Source: Trametes villosa (taxonomy: Eukaryota; Basidiomycota; Agaricomycetes; Polyporales; Polyporaceae). From it: DNA of 64,000 nucleotides. A program made the translations under genes and the position numbers. Numbering within the stretch: position 1 is the stretch's first letter; the number at the start of each line of letters is the position of its first letter. The notes below the pieces were generated by a model, which was given only the letters and a program-made list of their open reading frames with translations, was not told the DNA's origin and ran no database searches. The DNA is taken from assembly GCA_002964805.2 (NCBI GenBank), contig PUDQ02000037.1, positions 22,404 through 86,403 of the forward strand, read 5' to 3'. Positions 6,114 to 58,103 of the stretch are shown here, in pieces.

Positions 6114-6895
6114 TGGCCGGGGTGGTGGATCAGGTCCTGGGATTGTGCTGGCTGGTTCTTGCGAGTTCGAACGAGGGGATGTCCAGAATACAGATACATA
6201 GAGCTCCTAGTAGTAGATACAGCCCTGTATTGGTCGTAGACGACGTCTAAATACGCAGCTAGGAGGACGTGGTGTGAGATGTACCGCCAGAAACGCGTCG
6301 ACGCGTGGTCGGAGTTCCGATCGCGTTTGATATCGATCGCGTTGTGGCTATCTAATCAGGACAATTGGCACCCCGCGCGGGCGCTTCTCCCCCCTGACTC
6401 GGACATCCCCTCTGGCGGTGTTGCCGCTCCCCACTAAGATCGAGAGGCGCCCGAGTGCTACTCATCCTACACTTCTCTTCAACTTGGACTCTCCATTTTC
6501 CGCTCAATCGTGTAGAGGCCCGACATGTGAGTCTCCCGTGCCAAATTCCATCTGCATGGAGCTCTTCAGACCTACATATCTGTGGCGAACCTGTTATCGC
6601 CAGGGCGCCCGCCCGTCCCCGCATTCAGTATCGCGAGGCGCACAACTGGACCAATCCATCAACCACCTGATAAGTCGGCAGCTCGGAACTATACACTTGA
6701 GGCGTCCTCCCACACGGTCTCAGCCCCTTCCCGCTCGAATGCCTCGGTATATGCCTCTATTCTGGTCACACGCCCCAGGGGCCGTATCCACTCTATCGCG
6801 CCTGGCGCGGTCCGGGCAGAGTGGCTGCCCCCGTTTAAAGTTGCTCGACGCCCCGCCGTGCGCGGTGGCTGCTCCTTGCCTGACCCCTTGACGAT
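6114..6895. other. intergenic region, promoter of the Atg22-like gene
   Basis: No coding signal. It holds the 3' end of the broken transposon gene and the upstream region of the transporter gene. A perfect 14-bp palindrome ACGCGTCGACGCGT lies at 6293-6306, containing MluI-like ACGCGT cores; its role is unknown. Confidence 0.5.
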
Positions 6896-9493
6896 ATGTC
6901 TCGCCAGCCTCTGCCTGAGAACATCCCGGACGTCGCGCCCAATGCGCTGGCTGTCGTAGATAGCGCGGATGGTTCAGGGAAGGGTGATTCGGGCATTGAG
7001 ACGGACGTGGTCGCGATCGCTCCAGTCAGGAAGGACGAGCCGATTGTCACCCGCAAGGTGCGTGTACTACACTCCAGCAGAACATAGACACTAATAGTAA
7101 TACATCTTTCGGCAGGAACTTTGGAGCTATTACCGTGCGTCGCACTTCTAATATTGTTCCTCTGGTATTCTGACCAGCGATATCCTAAGTCTACTACAAC
7201 GGTGATAATGTGAGTACCAACTATGAAAGGATTCGTGTTCCGACTGACATTATCGCGTTCGTAGGGCGTGGGTCCGAATGGTCGGTGAATCCGACCTCGA
7301 AGTTGGAGGATCACTCTGATTTGGTCTCACCTAGGCTACTCCATGACGCTGTTCCAGTCGCTTGCGACCGCAGCAGGATACGACCCCGTCAAGGGCCCCG
7401 GTTCAGACTGCTCTGCTCCAGATGCTTCAGGTCAATGCGTGTTGCCCTGGTCTGGGGGGACCAAAGCCGTCAGCTCCATCGTGCTTGTCGCGAATGGCGT
7501 TAGTTTCGCGGTACGTACAGTTACTCTCCGAATGCGAAGTCGTACTTACCTGTCATATCCAGGTCATGACGCTGATTTTTACCACCATCGGGTCCGCTGC
7601 CGACTATGGGGGGTTCGGACGGTGGCTCCTGCTCATCCTCACCGTGATCTGCTGGGCAGCCCAGTTTGCCAGCATGTCTCTGACGTGTGAGTAGCTCGGT
7701 GCAGCTCCCCCCAGGTTCTCTCTGACCTCTGCCAGCACCTGACCGTTGGGGCGCCGCGATGGCGTTGTACATGATCGGGTTCATCTCATACGGCGCGACA
7801 CTCGTGTTCTACGCGGCGGTCTTCCCTCGTCTTGCACGAAACACTCCTCACGCGCGGAACCTGCGCGAGAAGTATGAGCGCGGCGAGATACCCGCGGAGG
7901 AATACGAGGTCGAGGAGAGTCTCGAGAAGAACCGTATCAGCAACATCAGCACGGTGAGCGACTACGCCCAGTATATGCGGTGGGCTCGAGGCTGACGGGG
8001 GCCACATGATAGATGCACAGTAACATTGGGTACATCTTCACCCTGGCGCTGAACCTCTCGCTGCTCCTGCCTCGCGCGAGCGACCCTAGGGTGAACAACT
8101 ATGTCCTCGTTCTGTACGTCAAATTTTCCAGGAAGCATGTAGCGCATAGGTGATTGACTATCGAACAGAACGAATGGGTATTGGGTACTTCTGGGGATAT
8201 GGTGGTGTGAGTACTAGAAGTATTCCCGCTACAAACCGCTCTCTAATCGCCCCACCAGTCGTCTTCCAGCAGCCCAGACCTGGGCCTCCTCTCCCGAAGG
8301 GCGAGCATTACTTGACGATAGGCTGGAAACAGGTAGGTGAAGAGAGGTTGAAACGCATGCGTTGTCTGACCTCTAGTCCGCACTCTAGATTTGGATCGCG
8401 TTCAAGCAATACAAGAAGCTGCCCTACACCTTCATATACCTCATAGCGTTTTTCCTGCTCGCCGACGTGAGTAGCGCGCTGACCCTCAGACGCCATCGCG
8501 CTTGCTAAACGAGCCTCTGTTCTGTCTCGCATTAGGGTTTGAACACGACTGGCACACTGGTATCCATCTGCCAGAACGACAAATTCCAGTTCTCGTTCCT
8601 GCAGAACACGTACCTTGGGCTTGCGCAGGCCATCACGTCCACGATCAGGTCGGTATATGCGGGCCAACTTCTCTCTAATGGTCTTCTCAGAGCTGACGCG
8701 ATGCACCTACAGCACGCTGGGCTTCTGGTACATCCAGAAGTACTGGAAGATCCGCACGAAGACGATGGTAAGCCCACTGCCTCTTGTAAACACAGCCCCT
8801 CTTTGACCCCCTTTCCTTTCAGTTCACGATCACGAACGTCGTGACGATCTTCATCCCGTTGTGGGGCATGATCGGCATCTGGACCAACAAGTTTGGGTAC
8901 GTAGCCGGCCTCGTTATTCCCGCAGGCGCGCTCACCCAGACGCTTCTGCCAGGTTCCACAACGTCTGGGAGTTCTGGGCGTACAACGTTGTATTCGGCCT
9001 CTTCCAGGCGCCGTACTACGCCTTCTCGCAGACGATGATGGCCGAGCTCACCCCGCCCGGGTTCGACAACATGGTGCGCCCCCCTCTTCCTTTCCTCATA
9101 ACTCTCGTCTCACTACACCGTACCCGCAGTTCTTCGGGCTGTTCGGGCTGTCGAACCGCGCGTCGTCGATGATCGGCCCGAACGTGATCCAGGCGATCAT
9201 CGACCGCACGGGGGACAACTGGAAGGGCTTCCCCTTCCTCTTCGCGCTCTGCACCGCCGCGAGCATCGTCATCTGGTTCGGTGCGTCCTTCCCCCATCGT
9301 CTCCTTTGCCGCATATACAATGAGGGCTCGCGTGCTGACCATCGACTGGGTTGCAGGCGTGAACGTGGAGACGGGGCGACGCGACGCGGTTGCGTGGGCG
9401 GAGAAGCACCGCTCGTACGCGGAGACGGGCGTGTTCACGGCGGAGGAGGACGCGGCGGATGTGTCGGGCGAGTCGCTCAAGAAGAAGCTGTAG
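6896..9493 (+). CDS. Atg22-like vacuolar transporter (MFS superfamily)
   Basis: A chain of about a dozen short exons encodes a multi-spanning membrane protein of the Atg22 family, whose yeast member exports amino acids from the vacuole after autophagic breakdown. Family blocks seen in order: ELWSYY/LYYNGDN, YSMTLFQSLATAAG, VMTLIFTTIGSAADYGG, YMIGFISYGATLVFYAAVFP, VFQQPRPGPPLPKG, LADGLNTTGTLVSICQNDKF, IPLWGMIGIWTNKFG and MIGPNVIQAIIDRTGDNWKG. The soluble loop between the early and late helices contains a charged segment (REKYERGEIPAEEYEVEE). Exon 1 is 6896-7057, then introns of roughly 50-60 nt follow. The start is the first ATG ahead of the conserved ELWSYY block. The protein ends ESLKKKL. 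It is certain to be an Atg22-like MFS protein; whether it is the true Atg22 orthologue or one of several paralogues cannot be told here. Confidence 0.88.
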
Positions 9494-10041
9494 GCCTCCT
9501 CCTTGTCGTGTCCTTTCTTGCTTTTTGTATTTTGGACGTGCTCTGCGGACGCTGTGTTATGTTGCTTGGGACGAAATATCATGACAACACGGCTTCAGGG
9601 ATGCCTTGCGCGATATATGATTATCGGTGGGGATACTTCTCCCCGGTAAGCCGTGGGTGAGGCTGAACCACAGATGGGGATGAAAAATGCCTAGCAGCGT
9701 CAATAACAGCGACGCTGCTCTACAACAGTATGTTATTACCAGTGAATGCTCTATGTAGTGTTCGTAGTACGACGGATGAGACCGTGAGTGAGGGATGTAT
9801 GCGTGCAGCAACGACATGGAACATGAACCAATACAGGGGGATCGGATGGGCTAGCGATAGCAACAGGTGGTGCACATGAAGGTAAAACATGATAAACATG
9901 GACAACGGTGGTAAGCCAACAGAGACGGTGTCGCGAGGAGGCGCAGGGGAGATGGTGCGTAGCGGTGCTTGCAGTAGAAGCGCGTATAACGGAGGGGGGA
10001 CGTCATAAAGCATGAAGTGCGTCGGGCGAGCGGGGGGACTG
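9494..10041. other. intergenic region between convergent genes
   Basis: This stretch separates the 3' ends of the transporter (plus) and the hydrolase (minus). I see only probable 3' untranslated sequence and no coding signal. Confidence 0.6.
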
Positions 10042-42451: not shown

Positions 42452-43210
42452 TGATGCACTCAACTATCCCCTAGGGGCAACCAGAGACAGGCCGAGGGCC
42501 TTCGGAGGACGAGGCCTGTAGGGAAGCTAAGCGCGAAGCTGAGGAGAAGCGAGGTTCGAGTCGGGGTGCCCTTGCGGCGAAAGCGCGATGCGCTGGCAAG
42601 TCTCGCGCGGATCGCAACGCGTACGCGGAGAGCTGGCGGGAAGGCTTCGCAGTGAGAGCGCAAGCGGAAACGCTAGGGAAGACGCAGGGGCGCAGTTCGC
42701 AACGCAACGCAACGCAACGCAGGACGCTATTCGCAGAGGGGACGCAGACGCAATTGAGCTCCTGAGGGTGAGGGGGGAAGGAATCTGAGTTCTCTGGCGC
42801 CCGAGGTGCGTAGGTACATGGCCGGATCGTGCTACCAAAGCCTAGGCCAGCGAAAGGATCTAGAACACCTTCGGGGGCCCGCGCCGTGAATCGCGAGGAC
42901 AGCGGCCCCGCCGCGCGCGAGTCCACGCGCGCTCGCGAATGCCCGCCCTACGATTGGCGGTCGCGCCCGATAAGGCTGCCCGCGTGCTGCGCCCGCCCTT
43001 GGCGATGACTCGCGCTCCGCCCGCTCGGCCGATAGTCCCGCTCAACGCGCGCAAAGCCTCCAGACCCGTCGCGAGCGGAACCACCGCGTCCTTGCAGATA
43101 CCTGAGGGGAGGGACGCGCGCACTTCCGCGAGCGCGTGCATAGCGCGCGGGGCGCCGAGCGTAGAGGCCTGGCGAAGGATCCTGGGGTCAGCGTGGCACC
43201 GTGCGCATCA
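42452..43210 (-). repeat. 3' LTR (759 bp)
   Basis: Begins TGATGCACTCAACTATCCCC and ends GTGCGCATCA on the plus strand, matching the copy at 57347-58103. The outer parts are closely similar, but a block of about 100 bp (about 42598-42700) is unrelated or very diverged between the two LTRs. A CAACG tandem run follows the block. Confidence 0.9.
42701..42721. repeat. CAACG pentanucleotide tandem repeat in the 3' LTR
   Basis: About four units of CAACG, also present in the 5' LTR. It marks the edge of the diverged block. Confidence 0.8.
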
Positions 43211-43224
43211 TCTCCCCCTCGCTG
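43211..43224 (-). promoter_or_regulatory. polypurine tract next to the 3' LTR
   Basis: On the minus strand, CAGCGAGGGGGAGA directly precedes the LTR start TGATGCGCAC, the position and composition expected of the primer for plus-strand DNA synthesis. Confidence 0.75.
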
Positions 43225-43247
43225 AAATCCCGACCGTCCTCGGTCGC
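43212..43247 (-). repeat. 36-bp repeat, 3' copy (contains the PPT)
   Basis: 34 of 36 positions match 50055-50090: CTCCCCCTCGCTGAAATC, two mismatches, GACCGTCCTCGGTCGC (plus strand). The second part contains a small inverted repeat, GACCG/CGGTC. Confidence 0.9.
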
Positions 43248-43277
43248 TATCGATGCGATCGCGCCCGCGTCGCGGCG

Positions 43278-43285
43278 TATTTAAG
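43278..43285 (+). promoter_or_regulatory. TATA-like box of the first antisense gene
   Basis: TATTTAAG in a very GC-rich context, 47 bp before the ATG at 43332 and 68 bp inside the LTR boundary. Confidence 0.5.
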
Positions 43286-43331
43286 GACTTCGCGAATCGG
43301 GGCGCGCCGCGCTCTTCAGCTCTTGCACGCC

Positions 43332-45069
43332 ATGAACGGACTCCGCGCTACCGAAGACGCCGTCGCCACGCTCCGCGAGGAAGCCCAACCGCTCGCCTTG
43401 CAGCAGCTCGAGCGGCAGACCGCGAATCTGGAGGAGATGGAGGATGCGATGTCGTTCAGCCAGGAGGACTGGTACGCCGCGTTGAAGGAGACCATCTTCG
43501 CAACTGTGAGTCGTCGCGCACTGCTCGCGAACTCAGCCTGACAAGGTGCAGGAGTCGTACTTGATCGTGACGGACGGTGACGCTCGCCTCACGCCCCTCC
43601 TCGCGCGGATCGAGCGCGCGGTGGGAGCCCAAACGACGGATGCTGGCCTGCGACCGTACTTCCTGGAGCGGCTGGCGTCCGTCCGTAGGGAGATCGAAAC
43701 CCGTGTCGCGGAGGCCGCGCAGATGCGCCTGGAGGTCCAACTCGCCCGCGTACTGGCTGCTCGCCACGCCTTCACTCGCGCGGGTGCCGAAGGCGCGCTC
43801 GCGCTCGCGCGCGCTACCGACATCGAGGCTTCCGTGCGCCAACACCTGCGAGCCATTCGGCGCGAGCTGGGCGCCCTCGCAGAGGCGACTAACGACGCTG
43901 CCGCGCGCGCCGCCGCCGGTGCGCCCGCCCTTGCTAGCCTCGTCCCGCGCCGCGGTTCTGATATCTGGTACGGACTGCCAGACCTGGAGGCCTACGAGAC
44001 GGCGGCTTCGCTTGACGACGACAGACGGCCAGCCATATTCGCAGGCGAACACGAGAAGGGCCTGGGAGGAGGGTTACCGCGCCGGGTGGAGGAGGCGCGA
44101 AGCTGGGTAGAGGGTTCGGGCCATGAGGAGCGATGTATCGATGGCCCAAATAGATCTTGTCAGCGGGTGAACAATGCGCGACGCCCCCGACGTCACTGCT
44201 GGCGAAGCCCTTAAGATCGCGAGGTGCTTGACTCTCGCCGACCGTCTCGCGAACCATAAGTGCCCTCCCGCTCCTACGCAACGACATTCGCGCGCTCCAG
44301 GCTGCCTCCGTCCCCTTCGCTGTCGCCCAGATCGAGCGCACCTCGCGCGCGCTCGAGACTTTGGCCCGTCGCACCGACGTCGATCCTCGCGAGTGGGAAG
44401 TCGTCCTAGACCGCTTCCTGGAAGCCTCCGTACGTCCCGAGGACGGTGGTCCGCGGCTTGTCTTCCTTGCGCGCCTCCGATACTGAACACTCGTCGTAGG
44501 AACTCGCAATGCCGCTCGAGCTGACCTCGTACCACCTCCGCGACACCACCGACCGCGTCGAACGCGTCTTACGCGGGCCCGCCGCGCCTCCGTCCGCTCT
44601 GGCGTACTTCCGGAGTCGGTTCGCCTGGGTCGCCTTGGACCGCGAGCGCGAAGAAGCACTTTTTGAACAACGAGAGCTCCTCGCGCTCTTGGAGCGCGCC
44701 GCCGCGGCACGCCGAGTCGTCATTCGCAGCGGGGCCGACGCTGCCTTCCTGCTCCCTTCTACCCAACGCATCTTCGCCCAACTCGCCGCGCTCCAGCGCG
44801 ATAACGTCCGCACGCGCGAGGCCATCCACCACGCCAGTATCGTCCCACTCGATTTCTCCGGTCGCCCGATAACTGCGTCCGAATCGATCCCGCCGCTGGA
44901 GTCTCCACCCTTGCCGCCAAGCGACCCGCCAACTCGGGGCGCGGATCTCGCGGACGCGTCCTTCGCGGACCTGCTCGTCGGCTACACGCACCTCCCGATG
45001 GGCGAGGACCCGGAGAGAACGGCAGCGGCGGTACTCGCTAGACAGCAAGCCGGATCCGCGGCGGAGTGA
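43332..45069 (+). CDS. antisense cargo gene A, helical protein of unknown function
   Basis: On the strand opposite to gag-pol. Exon 1 (43332-43505: MNGLRATEDAVATLREEAQP ...) joins exon 2 at 43552 (ESYLIVTDGDARLTPLLARI) across a 46-nt GT..AG intron, in frame. Later exons hold LPLLRNDIRALQAASVPFAV and, after an intron ending at about 44502, ELAMPLELTSYHLRDTTDRV through to the stop at 45069. It is predicted to be mostly helical with many Arg/Glu/Ala repeats; I recognise no domain. The junction around 44000-44250 is not resolved. Consistent splice signals and coding-like composition argue for a real gene, not a shadow, because there is no sense ORF beneath it. Confidence 0.62.
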
Positions 45070-45504
45070 GATGCAGGCGATTGGTAGCACGTGTTGTACT
45101 TCGCCCTCGGTAATAGAATTGAATGCCGCGACTGACAGCTTCTGAGGCCGTTCGCGCCGCGGGAGAAGGCCTCGGACCCGCGGTCGTGCAACGCGAAGGG
45201 GGGCCACGCGGCTTCGCGCGTCGCGCCCTCGTGACCGCGAGTATTTGTCTTCGCGCGGCGTATTGCAGGGTCGCGAGGACCCGGGCCGCCTCGCCGCCCG
45301 GCGATGCGATACTGCGAGTTCGCCGCGCGTCAGAGAAGCGCTCCTCCGTGGTTCTGCAGTGCCCAGGCCGCGCGCCGCGAGGTGAGACGCCGTGCGCGGT
45401 CCTCGTGTGGTCGCGTCTCCCGCGCGAAGGCCCTCGCGCATAAGGCCACCCGCCTTGTCCTCGCGTCCCTTTCGCCCTCTCTCTCTCTCCCTCTTCCTCT
45501 CTCC
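45070..45504. other. spacer between the two antisense genes
   Basis: GC-rich, no domain. A pyrimidine-rich stretch (45468-45504, CTCTCTCTC-like) immediately precedes the ATG of gene B, as in many basidiomycete core promoters. Confidence 0.55.
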
Positions 45505-47994
45505 ATGGCTCCCCCCGCTACTCCCGCTACCCCTTCCGCCCGCAGCACCCTCGCCGCGGCCAAACGTCACCAGTGGGGACGGCTCGACCAGCTGATCCGG
45601 AATGGCCGCCCGTCCAACTCGTCGTCCGACGCCGATTGCGAGAACTTCGCGCGCGAGGCTCTCGAGATCGCGGTAAGTCCCACGCGCACGCGCCCGCCGG
45701 TTACTCTGCTGACCCCTGTGTCTAGCGACTCTTGATGAATAACGGCGAGACGGAGGAGGACACCGTCGACGCGCTAGAGGAGGTCATCGCCGCGACGGGC
45801 GATCGAGCCGTCGGAGCGGACGGTGCCGTAGACATCGGCACGCCGTGGACGAACCCCCTCTACCGCGCCGCGTACGCGCGGTTCTTCGCTCCCGCCGCCG
45901 CTTCCGCTCCCGCTCCCGCCGATCCGAAGTCGACGGTTCCCCGCGCCCGACCGGTGGGGACCACGCCCGGCTACACCCCTCGCCGCAACGTCCTCCCGGA
46001 GCCGCCCATCGCGACGCTCGACCTCAAGAAGGCCGCCCAGAAGGCCCCCGCTGGCTCTTCCTCCGCTCGCGGACGCGACACTGCTGTCCGCGGCAAGCCT
46101 TCGGCCTCGCGAGGCGCGCGCTCCGCCCCTAGCGGCGTCTCCTCGCCCTCCACTTCCGTCGCGGCCAAGCGCAAGCGCCGCTCGTCCTCGCCGCCAGCTG
46201 TGGGCACCGCGACCACCACCAGCAAGAAGGCGGCCGGCAAGAAGAAGGCTGCGGGACCTTTGACGCCCGCCGCTTTGCAGGCCATCGAGGTCTCCAGCGG
46301 CGCGGAGGCAGAGCCCAGCTCGGCACGTGGCCCTCGCCGCGCTGCTGCCGTCAAGAGCGAGCGCAAGACCGCTGCCCACGTGACGCCGCCCAAGAAGAAG
46401 AAGAAGAGCAAGTCCGCGAAGAAGGGCAAGGGTCGCGCCGGCGGTGCTGGTAAAGGGCGCGCCGCTGCCGAGGACCAAGAGGAGGACGACCCCGACGTCG
46501 AGATGGCGGAGGTTCGCCATGACCCTTTGCTCGAGCCGGGCGAGGAGTGGCCTCCGGCAGTGAAGGACGCGATCGCGAAGAAGCGATTCCCCTCACCCGT
46601 GTTCCGTCCCGCCAGCGAGGCCGACCGCATCCCCGCGGACGCCTACGTGAGTACCTCCCTTCTCGCCGTCGTGACGCGCTTCGCTAACCCCGCGCAGTGC
46701 GAGAAGTGCTCCAAGAAGCCCAAGGAGTGCCACATGGTGCGCGGACTCCCGCTGTGCACCAAGTGCGCCGTCTCGAAGCTGGGGTGCTACCTGAACGCCC
46801 GCACTACCGACGCGCTGAAGCTCAAGAAGGCCCCGAACTTCGGCAAGTGGTACAAGCACCAGCGGTACCCGCGCGGTATGATGTTCGCGCGTCTCCTCCA
46901 CGCCGTCGCTGACTCCCCTCCTAGGCCTGCGCCCCGACGGCTCGCTGGTCGCGGGCCTCCTCTCCTCTCGGACGGTGGCGGTCCCCAAGTGGGCCCTCAC
47001 GGAGCACAACTCGCGCTTCAACGTGGGCGCCCCGCTTGTCGACGCGGACGACAACGACGTTCGACGCGGGCTGACGGACGACTCCGATAGCGACGAAGAC
47101 GTGGACTCCGACGGGTGGTACGGCGCTCACGAACCCAGCAGCTCCGAGGATCCCGATGTCGTCGTGCCCGACCAGGACGCCGCCGATCAGTCCGACGCGA
47201 GCGAGGAGCCGCGGCCCGCGTCGCAGGCGCCTCTCGCTGAGTCCAGCGAGGACGAGCTCGCGGACGACGCCGACGCTCCTCGCGCGAGCGCCGTCCCAGC
47301 CCGGGTACGTTCGCGCTTCTCTCACGTCGAGGTGCGTCCGCTTCGTGAGGTACTCCTGCGCCGAGGCCTGACTTCGCTTCTCCAGGTCTCCCGCGCGCCT
47401 TCGCGTGCCTCGTCGGTGCGCTCGGCTGGCCCGTCGCAGGCTCCCGCCCCTCCTTCTTCGCCGCCTTCGCCTGACCTGCCCGAGATCGCTCTCGAGCCGC
47501 CTCCGCCCGCTTTCGGTCCGGCGCCCGCCTACGTCCCCGCTCCGCCCTCCGCTCTCGCCTCCGTGGACGCAGAGGGACTCCAGCCCGCTCCCGACGTCTC
47601 CCTCCTCACCTCCACGCTCCAGTCCTGCGCCCTCAGCGACGCCGCGATCGACGCCATCGTCGACAACCTCCTCGCGCAGATGGGCCAAGCCGCGCGCGCG
47701 CACCTGCGCGCTCAACGCGACGGGAAGCCGTCCGAGCCACTTGATCCCCTCCCGGCTGGATCCTCGTTGGTTCGCGCCGCGCACCGCGACGCCTCACTGG
47801 CCGCGGACGCGCACATCGTGGGCTACGCCTCCGCGATGCAGGCTATGCGCGCCGTGACGATGAAGAGGCTCGAGATGGTGTACAGCCCCGCGTGGACCAA
47901 CGACCTGGCCGGCCCCCTCCCGCTGCTCGCCGTCACGGGCTCGTCGTCCGACGCAGGTGAGCCGTCCGGGTCCGGCGCCGCGCGCGCTGAGTAG
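45505..47994 (+). CDS. antisense cargo gene B with Zn2Cys6-type cysteine cluster
   Basis: Exons 45505-45672, 45726-46646, 46698-46875 and 46925 onward join in frame with GT..AG introns of 49-53 nt. The N-terminal part is helical (HQWGRLDQLIRNGRPSNSSS; DTVDALEEVIAATGD), then comes a Lys/Ala-rich basic segment (PPKKKKKSKSAKKGKGRAGG). A cluster beginning CEKC at 46698 has the spacing C-x2-C-x6-C-x8-C-x2-C-x6-C, which fits the fungal binuclear zinc cluster. It is followed by KKAPNFGKWYKHQRYPR. An acidic Ser/Asp region and a C-terminal helical part (LLTSTLQSCALSDAAIDAIV) end at 47994. DNA binding is a reasonable inference. One more intron may exist near 47305-47384, though the frame is open through it. 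Confidence 0.72.
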
Positions 47995-48467
47995 GGGGAG
48001 GCTGGAGGCCGCTTTCTTGGTGCGCGCGCGGGCAGGCTGGCTTGTCTCGGACGCGCCTTCGTGTTGTACGTATCCGCTCTTCGCTCGCACCGCTCGCTTC
48101 GCTCCTGTAACCCTCGCGTCAGTATGTATCGCCGCACCCGCCCGTACTCTTCGTCCATAGTAGCCGGCTCATAAAGGTACATAGAGAAAATCAATGAAAA
48201 TTGTATAGTTCTTGGCAAACGAATGTGTGAGGTTGGGAATAACGTGCCTAGTCGCACGCTGCTCGTACTCGCGCGTACTTCGCGAGCCTGGAGGACGAGG
48301 CACGGACTTAGCGAAGCGTACGCGCACATAAAGGACTCGCGCGCGCGCTTGAAAAGGAAGCGAGACAGAGTCTTAAGTGGAAAAGCCGGGTCGAAGAAAG
48401 AGAGACTGGTATTTGGTAAGAGTGGTCCATCGTCGTAAAAGTATCGTACACATAACACGGAGTCTGA
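47995..48467. other. spacer between convergent cargo gene B and pol
   Basis: 3' flanks of cargo gene B (plus) and pol (minus). No coding signal. Confidence 0.55.
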
Positions 48468-51400
48468 TTACTCGTCGTCCTCGGAGTCGCTACTATCGAC
48501 GTCGCCGTCTACGTCGCGCGCGCCGTCGAGTAGCTCTGGTTCCGGGTCGTCGAGGCCATCGTCGTCGCCCTCCGTCAGCTCCGCCAGCCTCTTCTGCGAG
48601 ATGTCCGCGAAGTCCTCGGGGAGCGGAATAGTCCGTCGCGCGGCGTAGGGGATCAGGCGGAACGCGCCCACCGCGCGATGTAGCACGGTCCCATCGAGTT
48701 CGCACAGGACGTACGCCCCGCCGCGGTTGCGCGAGATCACTACCAGAGGGCCCGTGTACCGTGGTCGCATCTTGCGGTTGAGTGACTTCTCGATCTGCGT
48801 GTGTCGCATCAACACCAGCGCGCCAGCCTTGAAGTCGTAGTCTCGGATCGTGGCCGCGTGGTCGCGCTCGAACTTGCGCGCCGCCTCCACTCGCGCGCGA
48901 TAGACTCTCGAGTTCAGCGTCGCGAGCTGTTCTTGACGCTTTTGTAGCTCGGTCGCGCGACGCGCGAGCAACTCTTTGGTGGACAACAGCCCGACTGGAG
49001 GCGGTAGTAGGTACGTAGCTTCCGCGACGTCCAAGGGGAGGACCGGGTGGCAGCCGGTCACCGCGAAGTACGGCGAGCAGCCCATGCGCCGTCGGATCGT
49101 GACGCGCTCCGCCCAGAACGCGTAGTGCGCGTACTGCGACCACTTGTGCTGGTCTCCGCCCGCCGCCTTGTAGAGGACCTGGCGCGTATCGAAGTGAGAG
49201 CGCTCCACGATGCCGTTCGCCTTCGAGTTGTACGGGCTGATGCTGATGCGGTTGAGGTTGTAGCGCTCCTCGAGCTTGCGCGCTGCGCTGATGAACGCGG
49301 AGCCGTTGTCCGTGATGATCTCGACTATCGCGCCCCAGCGGCAGAGCAGCTCCTGGAAGAGGAAGTCGCTGACTGTCTTCTCGTTCTCCGAGCGCAGCAT
49401 CCGCCACTCCGGCCACGCTGACACGGAGCAACGCGCGACAACGATGATCGTGTATCCACCTGAGCTAGGCATCTTCATGATGTCGATGTACCATCGTACG
49501 CCGAGTCCGCCTGGGCGAGCGACGACTGGAGGGATCAGGACCTTGCGGTGCTGGCGCGTCTGACAGATATGGCAGGTCTTGACATACCACGTCGCGTCGT
49601 CGCGGAGCGAGGGCCACCAAAAGCGCTCGGCGACGAGATGCAACGTTGCGTAGCTGCCGCGGTGTCCTATGTCGTTGTGTGCCGCTCGGAGAGTCGCCAG
49701 CCGTCTCGCGCGCCAGACTACGAGCTTGTGTGCGCCTTGCGAGTCCTTCTTCCACAGTCGCTCGCCATCCACGAAGAAGCCTTGCGCGTACTTGATGAAG
49801 GTGCGGTACTCCGCGTCCTTGAGTCCCTCGGGTCGCTGGAGCGTGCGCAACCAGCTCGCGACGCGTTCTAAACGCTCGTCCGCTCGCCGTGTGTGCTCCG
49901 CGTAGGGCATCTCTGCCTCGCCCTCCGGTTCTGGGATCGCGCGCGTGTCGTCTTCTGATGCGAACCTGACCTTCGCTCGTGCTTTGGCCCTCTTCGCCCT
50001 CGTACTCGGCCCTCCTGCTTCGCTCGCGTTCTGTGCCTCCGTGTCCTGCGCCTCCTCCCCCTCGCTGAAATCGTGACCGTCCTCGGTCGCATCGGCGAGA
50101 GCGAAGAGGTGTGTGGGGTCGCGTTCGCGAGGAGGGCGGCTGCGCGGTCGCGGAAGTAGCTGGTGCAGGAAGCCGTGGATCTTGTCGATCCAGTCCTCGA
50201 ACTCCTCGCCGTCTTCTTCATCGACTTCAGGGTCTCCGGGTTGTCGCGGTCGTCGCGAGAGACCGTCAGGTCCGTGGGAGGTTCCGGGAACGTGAACGAG
50301 ATGGAAGTGGAAGGTTAGGATTCCGAGGATCCAGCGGTTTATACTCGCGCTGGGGGCGAGGTCCGGATTCTGTAGCATTCCGCGGATGTAGCGCGCGTCC
50401 ACTTCCACTACTAGTCTGCGGATGCCGACTAGGTAAAGCTTCGTCGCTTGCAGGGCGCGGAAGAGGCCATAGAGCTCCAGTTTTGGTTGGGAGAAGCGCG
50501 CCTCCCGTTCGTTGAGCGTGATCGACCCGAAGCGACTGTAGAACCGCTTGCGCGGGTCCTCTTCATCGCACTGGCAAAGGTGGTAACCAACGGCGATGTA
50601 GGACGTGTCGACCGCGAGGATGACGGGCGCGGGGGAGTCGTAGTTGATCGCGCGGAGGGCCGGGGACTCGAGAAGCGCTTGGCGCAGATCATTCATCGCG
50701 GCGAGCTGCGCCGGTCCGAACTCGAAAGGCGCGTCCTTGCGCGTGAGCTGGACTAGCGCGTTCGCGCGCTTCGCGAAGTTGCGGATGAAGATGCGCACTA
50801 CGCCCACCGTTCCGAGGAAGGCGCGTACTTCGGACAGGTCCTTGCACGGCCCCCAGTTCTTGATCGCTGCCACGCGCGACTCGTCCGGTAGACGTCCCTC
50901 TGGTGTGCACCGGTGCCCGACGACCATGATCTCGCGCGCGCAGAGGATCGACTTCGTGCCCGAGAAGGTGCCTCCCGCGTACTTCATGCGCTGCACGATA
51001 CGGTTCATGTTGCCGAAGTGCTCCCAGACGAAGCGCCGAATGCCTGGGTTCGCGGGGATCGTCTCGTACGTGCCGTCCTCGCCGCGATAGTCGGATTCGG
51101 GGCCCTTGCCAGGTACGTCGTCGATGTAGGGTACCGTGAACTCGGGGATCTCTGGTCGCAAGATGTAGGTGACGTCCTCGTGGAAGATGGGGACGGAATT
51201 GGACCATCCCATCGGCAGCGTACAGTGATGCAAGGCTCCGAAGGGGGTCTGGAAGGTGGTGAGGTCGCGCGAGGTCTCCGCGATCATCCGCTCGTCGTAG
51301 CCGACATAGAGGTCGAGGATTGCGCCGCACGCGCGCCCTCCGAACTGCTCTGCGAGGTAGTCGGGCGTAGGCGGGACCCCCGAGTGCTGGATCGTGACCT

Positions 51401-52394
51401 TATTGAGCGGCTCGAGACTGTGGACGATGCGCAGAGACTTCCCGTCCTTCTTGAGAACGCAGAACCAGCGCGACCGATAGGAGGAATTGGAGGGCTCGTA
51501 CACGCCGGCCGCGATCTTCTTCTTCAGCATCTCGCAGACCTGCTTGTAGAGCCCTGGAGGGATGGGGATATTGCGCTCGACCCACGGGGTGTGTGGGAGG
51601 ACGGGGAACTCCACCGGCGGGAAGTACTCCGGTTTGAAGCACCCGCGCTCCGCGTCGCTCCAAGCGAAAGCGCCGTGGTGTAGCGTCATGAAGTGATGGA
51701 GAAGGCGCTTCTCCTCTGGCCAGAGGAAGTCGCCGCCGTGGAGCTTGTCGAACGCCTCCTTCCGCTCCAGCGTGTAACGGCCGGTGGGTACGAACTCCGG
51801 CGGGCGCGGGTCGAGCCGGGGCATGTTCGCGAGCGGGTCGCCGCGGATGTCGCGCTCTATGCGGAACTGGGTTGGCACGGTGCCGAGGACGGCGCGGACC
51901 TTTTGCGCGACGGGCTTGTACTTCTTCTTCGACTGGATGAAGGCCGCCGCTGTGTCGCGAGAGTCTTCGCGCGCGTATACGACCCGCACGCCTTCCTCCG
52001 TCCTGAGCGCGAACTGAGGGAGAGTGACTCGGGTATCGCGAACCTCGGGTTGCGCCGGGTTCGGGGAGCAGTGCGTTGCTACGCGATCCACTCCCGAGAC
52101 AGGGAAAGAGTCCGAAGCTGATAGAGAGGTCGAGCCAGAGAGACGTGAAACCGGTTCGCTTTGTGGGTTTTGTTCTAGGGCGTAGGACGCCGCGATTTCT
52201 GGGAGACAGTCGCAAGCAGAGAGATAGACCGCAGAGAGAGAGAGAGAGATAGACGAGTCCGCGGCAGAAGGGGTAACTGGGGTATAGGCACTGATGAAAG
52301 GGACGTCGCCGTCCGCTTCCACGATCACGGCCACCTCCGCGCTTTCCGCGTCCGCGAACAGGTACGAAGATGGCGACGCGGGCGCGTTAAGCAC
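48468..52394 (-). CDS. Ty3/Gypsy pol: reverse transcriptase, RNase H, integrase
   Basis: Uninterrupted frame of about 1,308 codons. Reverse transcriptase: RWFCVLKKDGKSLRIVHSLE, AILDLYVGYDERM (first Asp), FGALHHCTLPMGWSNSVPIF, VPYIDDVPGKGP (YIDD). RNase H: VILAVDTSYIAVGYHL, KLELYGLFRAL, VVEVDARYI. A spacer of ~100 acidic residues holds the 36-bp repeat. Integrase: HNDIGHRG...CHICQTRQ zinc-binding HHCC, then Asp in RWYIDIMKMP, Asp in IITDNGSAFI and Glu in NGIVERSHFDTRQ. No chromodomain follows; the C-terminus is acidic. There is no ATG: the frame lies +1 relative to gag-pro and overlaps it by at least ~250 nt, so pol is probably made by +1 frameshifting, as in yeast Ty3. All catalytic residues are present. 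Confidence 0.9.
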   Translation of the reverse strand: MLNAPASPSSYLFADAESAEVAVIVEADGDVPFISAYTPVTPSAADSSISLSLSAVYLSACDCLPEIAASYALEQNPQSEPVSRLSGSTSLSASDSFPVSGVDRVATHCSPNPAQPEVRDTRVTLPQFALRTEEGVRVVYAREDSRDTAAAFIQSKKKYKPVAQKVRAVLGTVPTQFRIERDIRGDPLANMPRLDPRPPEFVPTGRYTLERKEAFDKLHGGDFLWPEEKRLLHHFMTLHHGAFAWSDAERGCFKPEYFPPVEFPVLPHTPWVERNIPIPPGLYKQVCEMLKKKIAAGVYEPSNSSYRSRWFCVLKKDGKSLRIVHSLEPLNKVTIQHSGVPPTPDYLAEQFGGRACGAILDLYVGYDERMIAETSRDLTTFQTPFGALHHCTLPMGWSNSVPIFHEDVTYILRPEIPEFTVPYIDDVPGKGPESDYRGEDGTYETIPANPGIRRFVWEHFGNMNRIVQRMKYAGGTFSGTKSILCAREIMVVGHRCTPEGRLPDESRVAAIKNWGPCKDLSEVRAFLGTVGVVRIFIRNFAKRANALVQLTRKDAPFEFGPAQLAAMNDLRQALLESPALRAINYDSPAPVILAVDTSYIAVGYHLCQCDEEDPRKRFYSRFGSITLNEREARFSQPKLELYGLFRALQATKLYLVGIRRLVVEVDARYIRGMLQNPDLAPSASINRWILGILTFHFHLVHVPGTSHGPDGLSRRPRQPGDPEVDEEDGEEFEDWIDKIHGFLHQLLPRPRSRPPRERDPTHLFALADATEDGHDFSEGEEAQDTEAQNASEAGGPSTRAKRAKARAKVRFASEDDTRAIPEPEGEAEMPYAEHTRRADERLERVASWLRTLQRPEGLKDAEYRTFIKYAQGFFVDGERLWKKDSQGAHKLVVWRARRLATLRAAHNDIGHRGSYATLHLVAERFWWPSLRDDATWYVKTCHICQTRQHRKVLIPPVVARPGGLGVRWYIDIMKMPSSGGYTIIVVARCSVSAWPEWRMLRSENEKTVSDFLFQELLCRWGAIVEIITDNGSAFISAARKLEERYNLNRISISPYNSKANGIVERSHFDTRQVLYKAAGGDQHKWSQYAHYAFWAERVTIRRRMGCSPYFAVTGCHPVLPLDVAEATYLLPPPVGLLSTKELLARRATELQKRQEQLATLNSRVYRARVEAARKFERDHAATIRDYDFKAGALVLMRHTQIEKSLNRKMRPRYTGPLVVISRNRGGAYVLCELDGTVLHRAVGAFRLIPYAARRTIPLPEDFADISQKRLAELTEGDDDGLDDPEPELLDGARDVDGDVDSSDSEDDE
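50055..50090 (-). repeat. 36-bp repeat, internal copy inside pol (possible central PPT)
   Basis: Matches 43212-43247 at 34 of 36 positions and includes the purine run GCGAGGGGGAG. It encodes ATEDGHDFSEGE in the acidic spacer between RNase H and integrase, about the middle of the element's coding part. Confidence 0.85.
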
Positions 52395-53463
52395 GAAATC
52401 GAGCCTTCCCGCGCGGCTGCGTCGGGATGGTGACGACTTGCCCCGTGTTCGGACAGTGGAGGGTGATGGTCTGCCCCTCGTCGTCGAGGTTCTTGACGAC
52501 GCTCCGCGTGAGCACGTCGAACGGTCGCCCGAGCAGCATGTCGTAGGGAGGATTGCGGATGATGTGGACCTGCAGGTAGAGGACGATGTCCGCGACGCGG
52601 AACGGGACGTTCCGAACGAGCCCCAAGGAGTAGTCGCACGCGCCGTTCGCGGACTGCATGCGGAGCTGGATGGTGGGATCGTACCCGAGTCCCAACGCGT
52701 GACAGACTCCTTCGGACATCGCGATGATCATGCATCCCGGGTCGATGATCCCCTCGATCCACTCCTTGTTGTCGACCAACCCCGAGATAGAGCGCAGTGC
52801 GTGAGACTCCTTCGCGACGCTGAGGGGCGGCGTCTCGTCCTTCGCCGCGTCGCTGCGTAGGTAGACCTCGTACGGGTCCGGGATGACCAAGCTTCCGGGC
52901 TCCAGTGGGTCGCCGTGACATGACACGTCGTTCTCGAGATGGTCCGGGAAGGAGTCGACGTTGGCAAAGTTCACCGACCGCGCGCCCGTCGGGACGCGCT
53001 TCGGCGAGACCGCCTCGCGGTACTTCGCGCGCAACTCAGGTGAGATCGACAGGAGCTCCTCTGGCGAAAGCGTGATCACCGGGGTCTTCATCGAACGCTC
53101 AAAGATCTCCTCCGCGAACTTGGCGTTATAGACCGGGACGTGCGTGCGGTAGGCTGTCTCACGCTCGGATTCCTTCGGCTTTGCAGGCGGCGCTCCGAAG
53201 TTACGGTTCTGCGGAGGAGCGTACGTCGCGTCGCGCGACTTCGCGAACGGGTGCTCGCGACTACCGCTCGGCGCCGCTTCGCGGGGCGCGGCAGGTTCCT
53301 TGAAGGGGGTAGGTGGCCGAGCCGCTGCGCGCGGCGCTTCCTGCTCGCGCGCGGAAGTGCTGATAGTCGTGTCACGCGCCTCGCGCGCGCCCGAGTCCCG
53401 TGGGGGAGCTGGCTGGTGAGGCGGAGGATCGCGCTGGCGCTGCCCTGAGCTGGCTCACAAGCT

Positions 53464-54180
53464 GTGGTAGTTCTATTATAACATGTACCGTCTAATAGCC
53501 CAGAGCGCATTACATTAGGAACCGTAGGGCTTTTATTATATCATTTTCCGGCCCTCCCGCCCTATTAGCAGCCCGGGCACCTGCCTAATACGGCCGATTT
53601 CGGCGGGTGGCTGCTTATCAGCCCGGGCCCTTCTTATCTCTTGTAGATAACACTCTAATCTCATCAATCCGAGCTCCCGGCCACCCGGGTGGCGCGGGAA
53701 TACGAGCGCTTTGGCCCTCGGCTGGGAACCACCCCGATTAGGCAGGTTCTCCTCTTTCCTCCTCCCTTGGGCCGCTCTCTAGCTTCATATCTTACTCGTT
53801 TCCCAGCCGATTCGCCTCGCAAGTGGCTCGTTAGATTCACGGCGACAAGGGCTACAATACACTCCAATGGTGCAAAACGATCTGGTACGTACTGACGCCG
53901 CTATATAGTGTACACTTGGGCCCTCTAGGGCGACACGATCCGGGCGATATCTCGCCCGTTTCGCGACGCACCGGGGCGCGCGTGGGCTCCCCAAAAAGCG
54001 GCTGGGCAGGGCTTTCTGGCGAGCCTACGTACACGCAATTCTGTCCAGCGGATCAGGATCTGCGCCCCGCCCATGTAGGGGAGGAGCCCAGAATCCCCTC
54101 CTGGCCGGTATTTCGCTCAATTTGCTGCAGGACAGGCTGAAACGTTGTAAGGCTCCCCGAAACCCGATGGACACTCGCTC
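53464..54180 (+). repeat. left arm of the foldback element
   Basis: Inverted partner of 54645-55351. Contains CAGCCCGGGC pairs flanking a segment with GCCTAATACGGCCGATTTCG. Confidence 0.8.
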
Positions 54181-54644
54181 ATCGGATTTTACAGCCCAGG
54201 TACAGCATCAGGACGGCTCCAGACAGCCTCATCCTGGGGTCTGGCACTAGGACGGCCGTTTTCCCGATATCGCGGGAACGCGGACGCGCACGGCAACGAA
54301 CCGCATGGGCAGCTCAGGTATATACCTGAGCACTGGGGGCTACCTGGGCATGGTCTGTATTGCTCAGAAAAGTGCAGCTGAGAGAAGGGAAGGGAGGGGA
54401 AGGGGGAGAGTAACATGGGGAGGGGGACAAGGGGCTGCGCAACGACGAGCGGTCGGATCGCCACAGCAAGCATACCGACAGAAAGCTGCTGAATGCAGCT
54501 TTCCGGGGGTATGCACGCGGTGGCGGCGCGCGTCCGGACGCCCGAGATATGGAGGAAATCGTCGTCCAGGGGAAGGGCCCTAGAACGGCGCTTTCTACTA
54601 CTTTCTACATACTCTACCTGGGCTGAAAACTCGGATGAGCGAAT

Positions 54645-55351
54645 GACCATCATGTTTTGGGAGGCTGTACAAAGTTCAAGCCGCATCTTAGGCGAATTGA
54701 GCGGTGTACAGCCTGGGAGGGGACTCTGTGCTGCTCCCCTAGATGGGCAGAGCACAGAACGCGAACCGCTGGGCGGAATCGCGCGCGCGTGGTCTTGACA
54801 GAAAGCCCTTTGCAGCCGCCTTCTGGGGAGCCCGGACAAGCCCCGGTGCGACGCGAAACGGGCGAGATATCGCCTGGATCGCGTCGCCCAAGGGGGCTTA
54901 GGTGTTCACTGTGTAGCAACATAAGTACCTACCGGAATGATCGCGCATTTGTTGCATCGTGTAGCCCTTGAAAATGCAAATCCAATGAGCCACTTGCGAG
55001 GCGAATCGGATGCGGAACGCACGAGATACAGGGAGAGAGAGCTGCCTAGGGGAGGTGGGATGAGGGGAACCTGCCTAATCGGGGCAGTTCCCAGCCGAGA
55101 GCCAAAGCGCTCGTATTCCCGCGCCACCCGGGTAGCCGGAAGCTCGGATTGATGAGATTAGAGTGGTATCTACAAAAGATAAGAAGGGCCCGGGCTGATA
55201 AGCAGCCACCCGCCGAAATCGGCCGTATTAGGCAGGTGCCCGGGCTGCTAATAGGGCGGGAGGGCCGGAAAATGATATAATAAAAGCCCTACGGTTCCTA
55301 ATGTAATGCGCTCTGGGCTATTAGACGGTACATGTTATATCAGAACTACCA
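54645..55351 (-). repeat. right arm of the foldback element
   Basis: Inverted partner of 53464-54180; the two arms differ by few bases in the outer part and by many in the inner part. Confidence 0.8.
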
Positions 55352-57326
55352 CAGCTGCTGGCTGGCTGGGTTCGACGGGGGGCCGATCCTTTGCTGGGAG
55401 GGGTCTCTGGTGCGCGGCTGCTCGGAGCGCGCGTCACTAGAGCGCCCTCGCTCAGGCCGGAACGGCGACGTCGGGCGCGAGCGCGGACCCCGGTAAGGCG
55501 GGATCTCTACTCCGTCAAAACGACTCCCACCCTGTCGCGCACTAGCCTGCTTGAGGGCGTAGATCTCGTGTTCCAGCTGCGCGATGCGGTCCACGGCGCT
55601 GAACTGAAAACTCTGCAGAGGGGGGTAGTCGTAGTCGTCGTTCGCGATCTCGAAGCTGAGCTGGGCGGCCGCGGGCGCGTTCGCGTTATGCGCCAGCGCG
55701 TTCGGGTTGCGACGGTGCCACTCGTAGACGCGGTCGCGGATCGTCACGCCTTCGAAGTGAGGGTTGGAGAGCGTCCTCGGGATGAAGTTACCGTTCGGGA
55801 GTACCACATAGCCCTGCTCGTTGCGCATGACGCGACCACCACGCACGTCTTCCTCCACGAACGGGCAAGTCCTCATCTGGCAGTTCGCGTTGCCGCAGTA
55901 GTGGCAGAAGTTCCCCCCGGGCCCATTGCCAGGCGGATAGCGAGCGTCCCCTCGAGCGTGCGGTGGGGGCTGGAATCGCTGCGGACCGCCTCCGGGCGGA
56001 CCTCCGACGCGGTTCGCGACGTTCGCGATCGCGTTCGCGCTCCCTTCGCCAACCGACTGCGCGAGGAGCCTGAGGATCGAGCCCAAGTCCTCGACCTTCA
56101 CGGTCGCACCCCCGCTGCTCGGCGCGCCTCGCGCTTCGCTTGCTGCGGGAACCGAGGGCGGACTAGAGGCCAAGGTGCCATGAAGGACGAAGGCCGCCGC
56201 GTTGTAGACGGTCTCGAGCGGGTACGGGTCGTCGGGGTAGTGGTCGGGCTCCTTAAGCTGAAGACGCTGCGAGACTTGCTCCCATAGAGGCGAGCGGATG
56301 CCGCAAACGAATAGGCGCGACTGCTCGGACTTCGAGATGCGGTCCTTGCTGATGAGGTAGGTAGTCATGGCGAGGAAGTCGCGGTGGTAGCTCGATAGTT
56401 CCGTGATGCTGGTGATGGGGCGCGCGCCGCGCGCCGCAACTAACGCCTCGACGTCGGCGACGGAGTACTTGCGCGTTTCCCCAGCCCCGGGGTACAGCTC
56501 GGTGATCGCCTTCTTCAGGTCCTCGTACGACTTCGCGGCCTCGGTGTAGGCGGGTAGCCCTTCGCAGAGGTCGCTCACGGCGATCGGGAGGTAGCGGATG
56601 ACCCACCGCTTCTTGGCTTGGTCGTCCTCCACCTCGCAGATCTCGAAGAGCGCCTCGAGGTCCTGGAAGAAGCGACGCAGCGTGCGTACCTCCTGCGGGT
56701 CGAAGATCGGCGCCGTGGAATGGCGCGCGGGCGGCATAGCGCGCCGCGAGCGCGATTGGTCGTCGTGTTCTCCCGGCATGTTGGCGCTAGGTGTCGGGGG
56801 CGAGCGCGAGCGAGACGACAGAGTCGGGGATGGAGGGCTGATAGACGGTACGCTTGGCGACAACGGTGTTTCAGAACGCGGCTGCGAGGCCTGTTCGTCG
56901 GAGGCGGACTGGTCGATGGGAGAGAGCTCGGTACGGCGCAGGTTCGGACTCGCCGCTGGAGTCTGGAAGATTGCCGAGTCGTCGAGGATGGAGAGGTCGT
57001 CGAGCTCTTCGGTCTGACGGGGTTCGACAGCGGATTCGATGACTTGAAGCGCAGTGTCGCGGATCCACGCGGTCGCGTCGGGGTCGCGAGCGAGTACTGC
57101 TGCTCCCTTTTCGAGGATAGCGTGAATGGGTTTGAGGATCGCCTGCGTCTGCTCGAGATCGAGCCTGTTGCGGAGTCGCGAGACGGCCTGCTTGAAGCTA
57201 GTGAAGAGGAGCTCCTCTGAGAGGGAAGCCTGTCGCGAGCGGGAGCGAGTCTTTCGCGTAATCGCGACGGGGACGGCGCTGTTGCCGTCGAAGGAGGAAG
57301 CCGACTGTGAAGTTCTAACTCCACCC

Positions 57327-57346: not shown

Positions 57347-58103
57347 TGATGCACTCAACTATCCCCTAGGGGCAACCAGAGACAGGCCGAGGGCCTTCGG
57401 AGGACGAGGCCTGTAGGGAAGCTAAGCGCGGAGCGAGGGAGAAGCTAGGTTCGAGTCGGGGTGCCCTTCGCGGGAGAGCGCGATGCGCTGGCACGTCTCG
57501 CGAAGGTCGCGGCGCTGGCGCGAAAGTAGCTACGAGCAGGCGCTCGCGAGGGGAACACGAACGCGGGCGCGGTGAAAGACGCAAGGACGCAACGCAACGC
57601 AACGCAACGCAAGACGCTATTCGCAGAGAGAGGACGCAGACGCAATTGAGCTCCTGAGGGTGAGGGGGGAAAGGAATCTGAGTTCTCTGGCGCCCGAGGC
57701 GCGTAGGTACATGGCCGGATCGTGCTACCAAAGCCTGGGCCAGCGAAAGGATCCAGAACACCTTCGGGGGCCCGCGCCGTGAATCGCGAGGACAGCGGCC
57801 CCGCCGCGCGCGAGTCCACGCGCGCTCGCGAATGCCCGCCCTACGATTGGCGGTCGCGCCCGATAAGGCTGCCCGCGTGCTGCGCCCGACCTTGGCGATG
57901 ACTCGCGCTCCGCCCGCTCGGCCGATAGTCCTGCTCAACGCGCGCGAAGCCCCCGGGCCCGTCGCGAACGGAACCACCGCGCCCTTGCGGATACCTGAAG
58001 GGAGGGACGCGCGCACTTCCGCGAGCGCGTGCATAACGCGCGGTGCGCCGAGCGTAGAGGCCTGGCGAAGGATCCTGGGGTCAGCGTGGCACCGTGCGCA
58101 TCA
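57347..58103 (-). repeat. 5' LTR (757 bp)
   Basis: Same ends as the LTR at 42452-43210. By eye about twenty mismatches over the distal 490 bp, but a diverged block of about 100 bp at 57494-57590. Confidence 0.9.
57590..57611. repeat. CAACG pentanucleotide tandem repeat in the 5' LTR
   Basis: Same unit as at 42701-42721, with about one unit more. Confidence 0.8.

Follow-up and report, generated by a model that had tools for sequence, protein, structure and literature searches.

Between the pol gene and the 3′ long terminal repeat (LTR) of a Ty3/Gypsy element of Trametes villosa lie three spliced genes on the opposite strand: the paralogues g1 and g1b, and a third gene, g2. The window, meaning the whole 64,000-nucleotide stretch of DNA that was analysed, holds this element on its minus strand, with two LTRs bounding gag, a protease frame and pol. 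The interval containing the plus-strand genes (43211-48467) measures 5,257 bases and is bounded exactly by the LTR edge and the pol stop. Judging from sequence, we give about an even chance to the reading that these genes make up an accessory module carried in antisense by a fungal Ty3/Gypsy lineage, with g2 as an element-encoded nuclear regulator captured, introns included, from a host gene. The genes would be transcribed towards pol from promoters beside the polypurine tract (PPT), at the box at 43278, and upstream of g2, near 45440. The g2 product would be a nuclear, zinc-cluster-like protein regulating the element's own transcription or chromatin state, and g1 and g1b would act as helpers. 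The host gene would have been taken in after the split from a module-less sister lineage, and elements would later have exchanged g2 alleles by recombination. Introns would survive retrotransposition because it is the other strand that gives rise to the genomic RNA; this agrees with the absence of any intronless copy among those modelled, as the original prediction had anticipated.

In the window copy, g1 consists of exon 1 (43332-43505), which is conserved in the other copies, a 46-nt intron, and exon 2, read here as 43552-44214 and frame-shifted near its end relative to other copies, where g1 ends at 212 amino acids in 5/5 full models. The g1b gene model has exon 1 at 44256-44429, without the start codon that is present in 6/6 other modelled copies, a 70-nt intron, and exon 2 at 44500-45069, which shows coding-type substitutions. 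Since g1 and g1b align along their length, with about 25% identity and a common phase-0 intron after codon 58, they are taken as paralogues. The model of g2 has five exons: 45505-45672; 45726-46646, with basic runs resembling nuclear localization signals (NLS); 46698-46875, with a six-cysteine cluster at 46698-46787; 46925-47331, with an acidic stretch; and 47386-47994, encoding a conserved C-terminal region. Introns of 53, 51, 49 and 54 nt separate them, the 760-residue frame is open throughout, and proline-rich parts are present besides the long acidic part. A nuclear role is proposed for g2 because of its NLS-like runs, six-cysteine exon and acidic stretch. Pfam returned nothing for the full g1, g1b and g2 proteins at E up to 1. 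An early phase-0 intron occurs in both g1/g1b and g2, but profile comparison of their N-terminal parts gave E 0.43, and homology is not claimed.

A TATA-like box, TATTTAAGG, stands upstream of g1 at 43278-43286 on the plus strand; it is the same in copy L012 and has one change in L015. Another, GCGCATAAGG, stands upstream of g2 at 45436-45445 and is the same in L009 and L012 and similar in L015. The original prediction placed the first box just inside the LTR, whereas it lies 68 nt outside. Its central claim, that spliced opposite-strand genes lie between an open pol and the 3′ LTR, is borne out by the LTR pair, the pol frame and the gene models, but the genes number three rather than the two it had counted.

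Recurrence and coding character of the genes

Our searches covered one genome, in which the best 102 of 154 integrase (IN) candidates, 73 of 162 reverse transcriptase (RT) candidates (E up to 1e-30) and 40 of 53 LTR candidates were scored; the absences reported here rest on these. At least 45 LTR matches were listed. The pol C-terminus matched ten loci at 96% or more, one of them cut by a contig edge. In 9/9 copies whose contig reaches that far, the g2 C-terminus lies on the other strand about 470-480 bases past pol. The first exon of g1 was found in 8/8 copies reaching its site; the C110 contig starts inside g2. The original prediction had reasoned that copies lacking the module would point to a one-off capture. 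No copy reaching the interval lacks it altogether (9/9), although its state varies: g1b and the greater part of g1 are gone from C88, g1 is interrupted by an insertion in C90, and about 15 kb separate the g1 part of C3 from its g2/pol part. All 32 matches to g1/g1b (32/32) fall in element copies, counting an LTR-flanked fragment in L015, and no relative of these two genes was found outside elements in this genome.

The sister element L021 (67% identical in RT, 53% in IN) has no module, and its 3′ LTR follows about 100 bp past pol. In the more distant L022-L026 group only about 1.7 kb, taken to include the LTR, is common beyond pol. The module was therefore gained in the lineage of the window element, or else other lineages lost it two or more times. 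In the sister element itself, the 5′ LTR seems to be split by about 3.3 kb (L036 5229-9204, L021 8043-8721), as judged from its two halves, which match adjoining parts of the 3′ LTR.

Because GC-rich DNA gives many long frames on both strands, frame length was set aside as evidence, and substitutions between copies were compared instead. Between L009 and L012, changes at codon positions 1/2/3 numbered 3/1/28 for g1 and, over codons 1-190, 17/6/60 for g1b. For g1 this pair differs by 28 synonymous and 4 nonsynonymous changes, a nonsynonymous-to-synonymous rate ratio (omega) of 0.046; omega in the other g1 pairs was 0.10 and 0.14 (range over 3 pairs 0.046-0.143). Omega for g1b was 0.17 between the two types and 0.29 (20 changes) between close copies, and for the g2 C-terminus 0.165. 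Values for pol were 0.035, 0.044 and 0.133, leaving out the comparison with L018, which was misframed (7% identity). Comparison of the whole of g2 between the window and L009 gave 0.325, with 0.166, 0.312, 0.655, 0.281 and 0.187 for exons 1-5. In g1, g1b and the C-terminal part of g2, substitutions follow the pattern of protein-coding sequence.

Complete g2 models were obtained for the window, L009 (766 aa), L012 (722 aa), L014 and L015, the last of which belongs to a second element family described below. L010, L011, L016 and L017 were left out, as the expected start or splice strings were not matched, and the L013 model ends early, at 462 aa. The four g2 introns (46-56 nt, phases 0,0,1,0) are present in 4/4 copies of the window's family, family 1, that were modelled to the end (window, L009, L012 and L014), and introns 1-4 occupy the same alignment columns, in the same phases, in the window and L012. 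The introns that the original prediction described as consistently GT..AG are indeed conserved, with one GC..AG departing from the rule.

Origin, alleles and possible role of g2

A gene at L033 (C1, 4.256 Mb) is 28-32% identical to both family-1 g2 alleles, and its introns 1-3 lie in the same alignment columns and phases as those of g2; it was modelled through three introns, with an uncertain end. The nearest LTR match listed on that contig is 1.4 Mb off, and the TATA-like boxes kept among the element copies were not seen upstream of it. By this comparison, g2 has at least one relative outside these elements. The common introns of the L033 gene suggest that g2 was captured from a host gene; the reverse direction, domestication of an element gene, also fits. 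Of the original suggestion that host genes had been captured, the part concerning g2 thus gains support from L033, and g1 and g1b, present in element copies only, give it none. Likewise, its alternative of single-copy host genes does not describe g1/g1b in this genome, and g2 has relatives both in and outside elements.

Further candidates were less complete. On C19 (42.7-70.7 kb), four cysteine-exon matches, one of them at E 0.16, lie within 28 kb, and searches with LTR, gag, protease, RT and IN list no match there; these loci, known from the matches alone, may form a cluster of g2-type host genes. L034 was dropped as a g2 relative, its match being a single stretch (residues 556-632) in the proline/serine-rich part. 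Adjoining the g2 relative at L033 (C1:4250500-4260499, oriented 2280-3360) are frames resembling a host gene of CmcJ/NvfI type.

When the cysteine exon of the chromosomal relative was used as the query, 11 further element-like loci were found (among 29 matches; E 6.8e-7 to 5.6e-4). LTR matches at these loci have 79-91% identity to that of the window and mostly cover its first 570 bases; the PPT side is also common to them. In 10/11 of these family-2 loci, a gag 68-71% identical to that of the window lies on the opposite strand, at most 8 kb from the cysteine exon. Among the candidates scored, protease and integrase (E up to 1e-5) and RT (E up to 1e-30) matched inside 0/11 loci. LTR pairs span 7.5-7.6 kb end to end on C53, C1 (5.69 Mb) and C56, and more widely on C3 (about 10 kb) and C140 (about 11 kb). 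The family-2 antisense gene was read in one copy, L015, where it has five exons, 472 aa, intron phases 0,0,1,0 and five of the six cysteines, the sixth being absent. That these elements have gag and an antisense gene while no pol was detected draws attention to the antisense gene as possibly needed by the element itself.

Two side observations concern this family. Past the L015 gene (oriented 6400-9600) runs a long plus-strand frame that resembles a Copia-type gag; the L015 gag itself is 7-8 kb away, suggesting a nested insertion. At L032 (C16:561000-570999, oriented 1738-4350), a piece of a family-2 LTR is immediately followed by a window-type g2 fragment, which marks the locus as a truncated or chimeric remnant.

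Within family 1, the L012 allele of g2 is about 33% identical to that of the window in its N-terminal and middle part, and 50% identical over all 666 aligned residues. Synonymous divergence (dS) between the window and L009 was 0.059 in pol, 0.119 in g1 and 0.098-0.87 in the g2 exons; for the window and L012, pol gave 0.112, g2 exons 1-4 gave 0.89-1.13 and exon 5 gave 0.45. The g2 alleles seem to predate the elements in which they sit, and their far greater divergence than that of the adjoining pol fits an exchange of g2 between elements by recombination. Nonsynonymous divergence (dN) was highest in exon 3 in 3/3 g2 comparisons, and omega was highest there in 2/3. Tentatively, and with odds we place clearly short of even, the module may be a regulatory cassette that can be swapped: a regulator gene of zinc-cluster type would have been captured from the host, antisense and with its introns, its alleles would be swapped between elements by recombination, the cysteine exon, as the putative recognition domain, would change fastest, and a derivative family would live on gag and such a regulator with a borrowed pol. 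If so, the regulator carried would set element families apart, like the immunity factors of plasmid and phage groups.

The cysteines of the window g2 are spaced C-x2-C-x6-C-x8-C-x2-C-x6-C, which we take to fit the general Zn(2)-Cys(6) pattern. A search of the PDB by sequence with the cysteine exon gave 0 matches up to E 10. The zinc-cluster label for g2 is a resemblance only.

A number of results weigh against a captured nuclear regulator. The window exon scores 13.2 bits with PF00172, for which the cut-off is 21, and this model gives no match for L009, L012, L015 or L033. The first cysteine loop has 6 residues in the window and L009, 5 in L012 and 7 in L033, L015 is without the sixth cysteine, and the fold model is poor (mean pLDDT 61.4, pTM 0.43). 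Between g2 alleles omega rises to 0.58 (window-L012) and 0.52 (L009-L012), reaching 0.93 in exon 3 of window-L012, which marks the middle of g2 as being under weak constraint; for g1b the pair L014-L009 gave 0.72, on 9 changes. Since splice sites were picked manually while looking at the other copies, intron conservation is not fully independent evidence. Identity between the L015 gene and g2 is only 20-27%, and of the four L015 introns two occupy different alignment columns; what ties this gene to g2 is therefore the cysteine exon, the first and third introns, and its position. Lastly, the comparison of L033 with g2 leaves the transfer between element and chromosome free to have run either way.

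Four other explanations were weighed. First, g2, and perhaps g1 and g1b with it, could act in the particle, as a Gag partner, in RNA packaging, or as a nuclear-entry factor for the integration complex. The retention of a g2-like gene with gag where pol is missing speaks for such a role, and a protein that binds nucleic acids or aids nuclear import could well have such basic runs and a cysteine cluster; its extended acidic and proline-rich segments, however, look more like those of a transcription factor, and separate transcription from the opposite strand would leave the g2 level uncoupled from Gag. We consider a particle role fairly unlikely. Second, the genes may be passengers, host sequence captured without benefit to the element, an idea compatible with an antisense placement that leaves gag-pol undisturbed, with damaged g1 and g1b beside open g2 and pol in the window copy, and with the weakly constrained middle of g2. 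It sits poorly with a module kept in all nine copies, with omega values of g1, g1b and the C-terminal part of g2 that stay well under 1, and with the g2-like gene of a family in which no pol was detected, and we hold it to be unlikely. It is quite improbable, third, that the antisense transcript is the product, pairing with genomic RNA to feed silencing or dampen reverse transcription, with the frames incidental: such antisense RNAs are discussed in the excerpt available of PMC7264820 and, for yeast Ty1, in that of PMC12786077, but the third-position bias, the low g1 omega and the conserved splice sites would be unexpected of a non-coding RNA. Finally, long frames are plentiful on either strand of GC-rich DNA, yet the idea of chance frames, or of an unrelated gene hit by the element or inserted once into the window copy, is next to negligible as an explanation and already contradicted: on many contigs the module turns up again between this pol and this LTR, and it shows coding-type substitution.

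The element carrying the genes

The minus-strand LTRs, located by LTR alignment, occupy 42452-43210 (3′) and 57347-58103 (5′). They are identical in 694/766 alignment columns (91%), with the divergence mainly in one patch, and no target-site duplication was found across the two flanks of the element. Patchy LTR divergence together with the lack of a target-site duplication indicates that the window copy may be an inter-element recombinant.

The pol gene is an open frame of 1308 aa (48468-52394, minus strand) in which RNase H (residues 560-692) and an integrase zinc-binding domain (896-950) pass the Pfam cut-offs, and an integrase core (967-1056) falls below its own. RNase H thus precedes integrase, the domain order demanded of Ty3/Gypsy. 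No RT model was among the Pfam matches listed for pol at E up to 1; the region ahead of RNase H is conserved among related elements. A protease-bearing frame lies at 52387-53091 on the minus strand (PF13650 above cut-off). The gag gene (55346-56863, minus strand), delimited from its frame and from genome copies, is interrupted at its 3′ side. The 1905-bp insertion that splits it (53456-55360) ends in inverted repeats, about 400 bp long and 90% complementary; L019 shows the empty site.

On the minus strand, the PPT (43211-43222) adjoins the 3′ LTR, with a short inverted repeat beside it at 43231-43246. We considered the repeat as a binding site for g2 and rejected this; because the module-less sister L021 has a similar repeat beside its PPT, a PPT signal is likelier, and the repeat is probably linked to the PPT. 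About 40 bases comprising the PPT and inverted repeat occur twice (43212-43252 and, inside pol on the minus strand, 50055-50094) in the window, L009, L012 and L016, and the copy within pol is possibly a central PPT.

Comparison with known systems

The original prediction was aware of no described fungal case, but Boty of Botrytis and Sclerotinia provides one: the excerpts available of PMC7264820, PMC8365987 and PMC4227169 describe an additional antisense gene, brtn, between its pol and 3′ LTR. Boty and the window element are alike as fungal Gypsy elements with an antisense gene in this position (PMC7264820); they differ in that one gene is named for Boty, whereas the window element has three, with introns, and a g2-like gene occurs in a family with no detected pol. 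An excerpt of PMC12786077 cites three works on additional open reading frames (ORFs) in fungal elements. No basidiomycete case of an antisense module was named in the titles or abstract openings returned by our literature searches, and in the literature searched we did not find described a three-gene spliced module, a chromosomal relative with common introns, a family carrying an antisense gene of this sort but no detected pol, or allele exchange.

For plants the original statement that some Gypsy elements carry antisense ORFs holds: according to the portions seen of PMC11963269 and PMC7264820, Grande1, RIRE2, Retand and PvRetro13 have them between pol and the 3′ LTR. The same portions describe these antisense ORFs (aORFs) as present in most copies, in a long region between pol and the 3′ LTR, and as proposed regulators, and the Grande antisense protein as nuclear and served by its own promoter. 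Both papers, by Vicient and colleagues, also give the functions as undetermined and the origin as open, partly as no relatives outside transposable elements were known. The window module resembles these elements in having an antisense frame between pol and the 3′ LTR (aORF-3R) in most copies; they differ by lineage and kingdom, and in that no relatives outside transposable elements are reported for them, whereas g2 has one. By analogy only, the antisense-encoded nuclear regulators HBZ and APH-2 of HTLV (PMC11963269, in the part available) recall what is proposed for g2.

Fungal Zn(2)-Cys(6) proteins (PF00172) are similar to the window g2 in cysteine spacing, from which g2 differs by its sub-cut-off score, its varying loops and the cysteine loss in L015. 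A chromosomal relative with matching intron positions makes capture, or domestication, testable by phylogeny, and, thanks to the introns, strand-specific reads could readily prove antisense transcription. The window module belongs to a kind of antisense gene already known in plants and in one fungal element.

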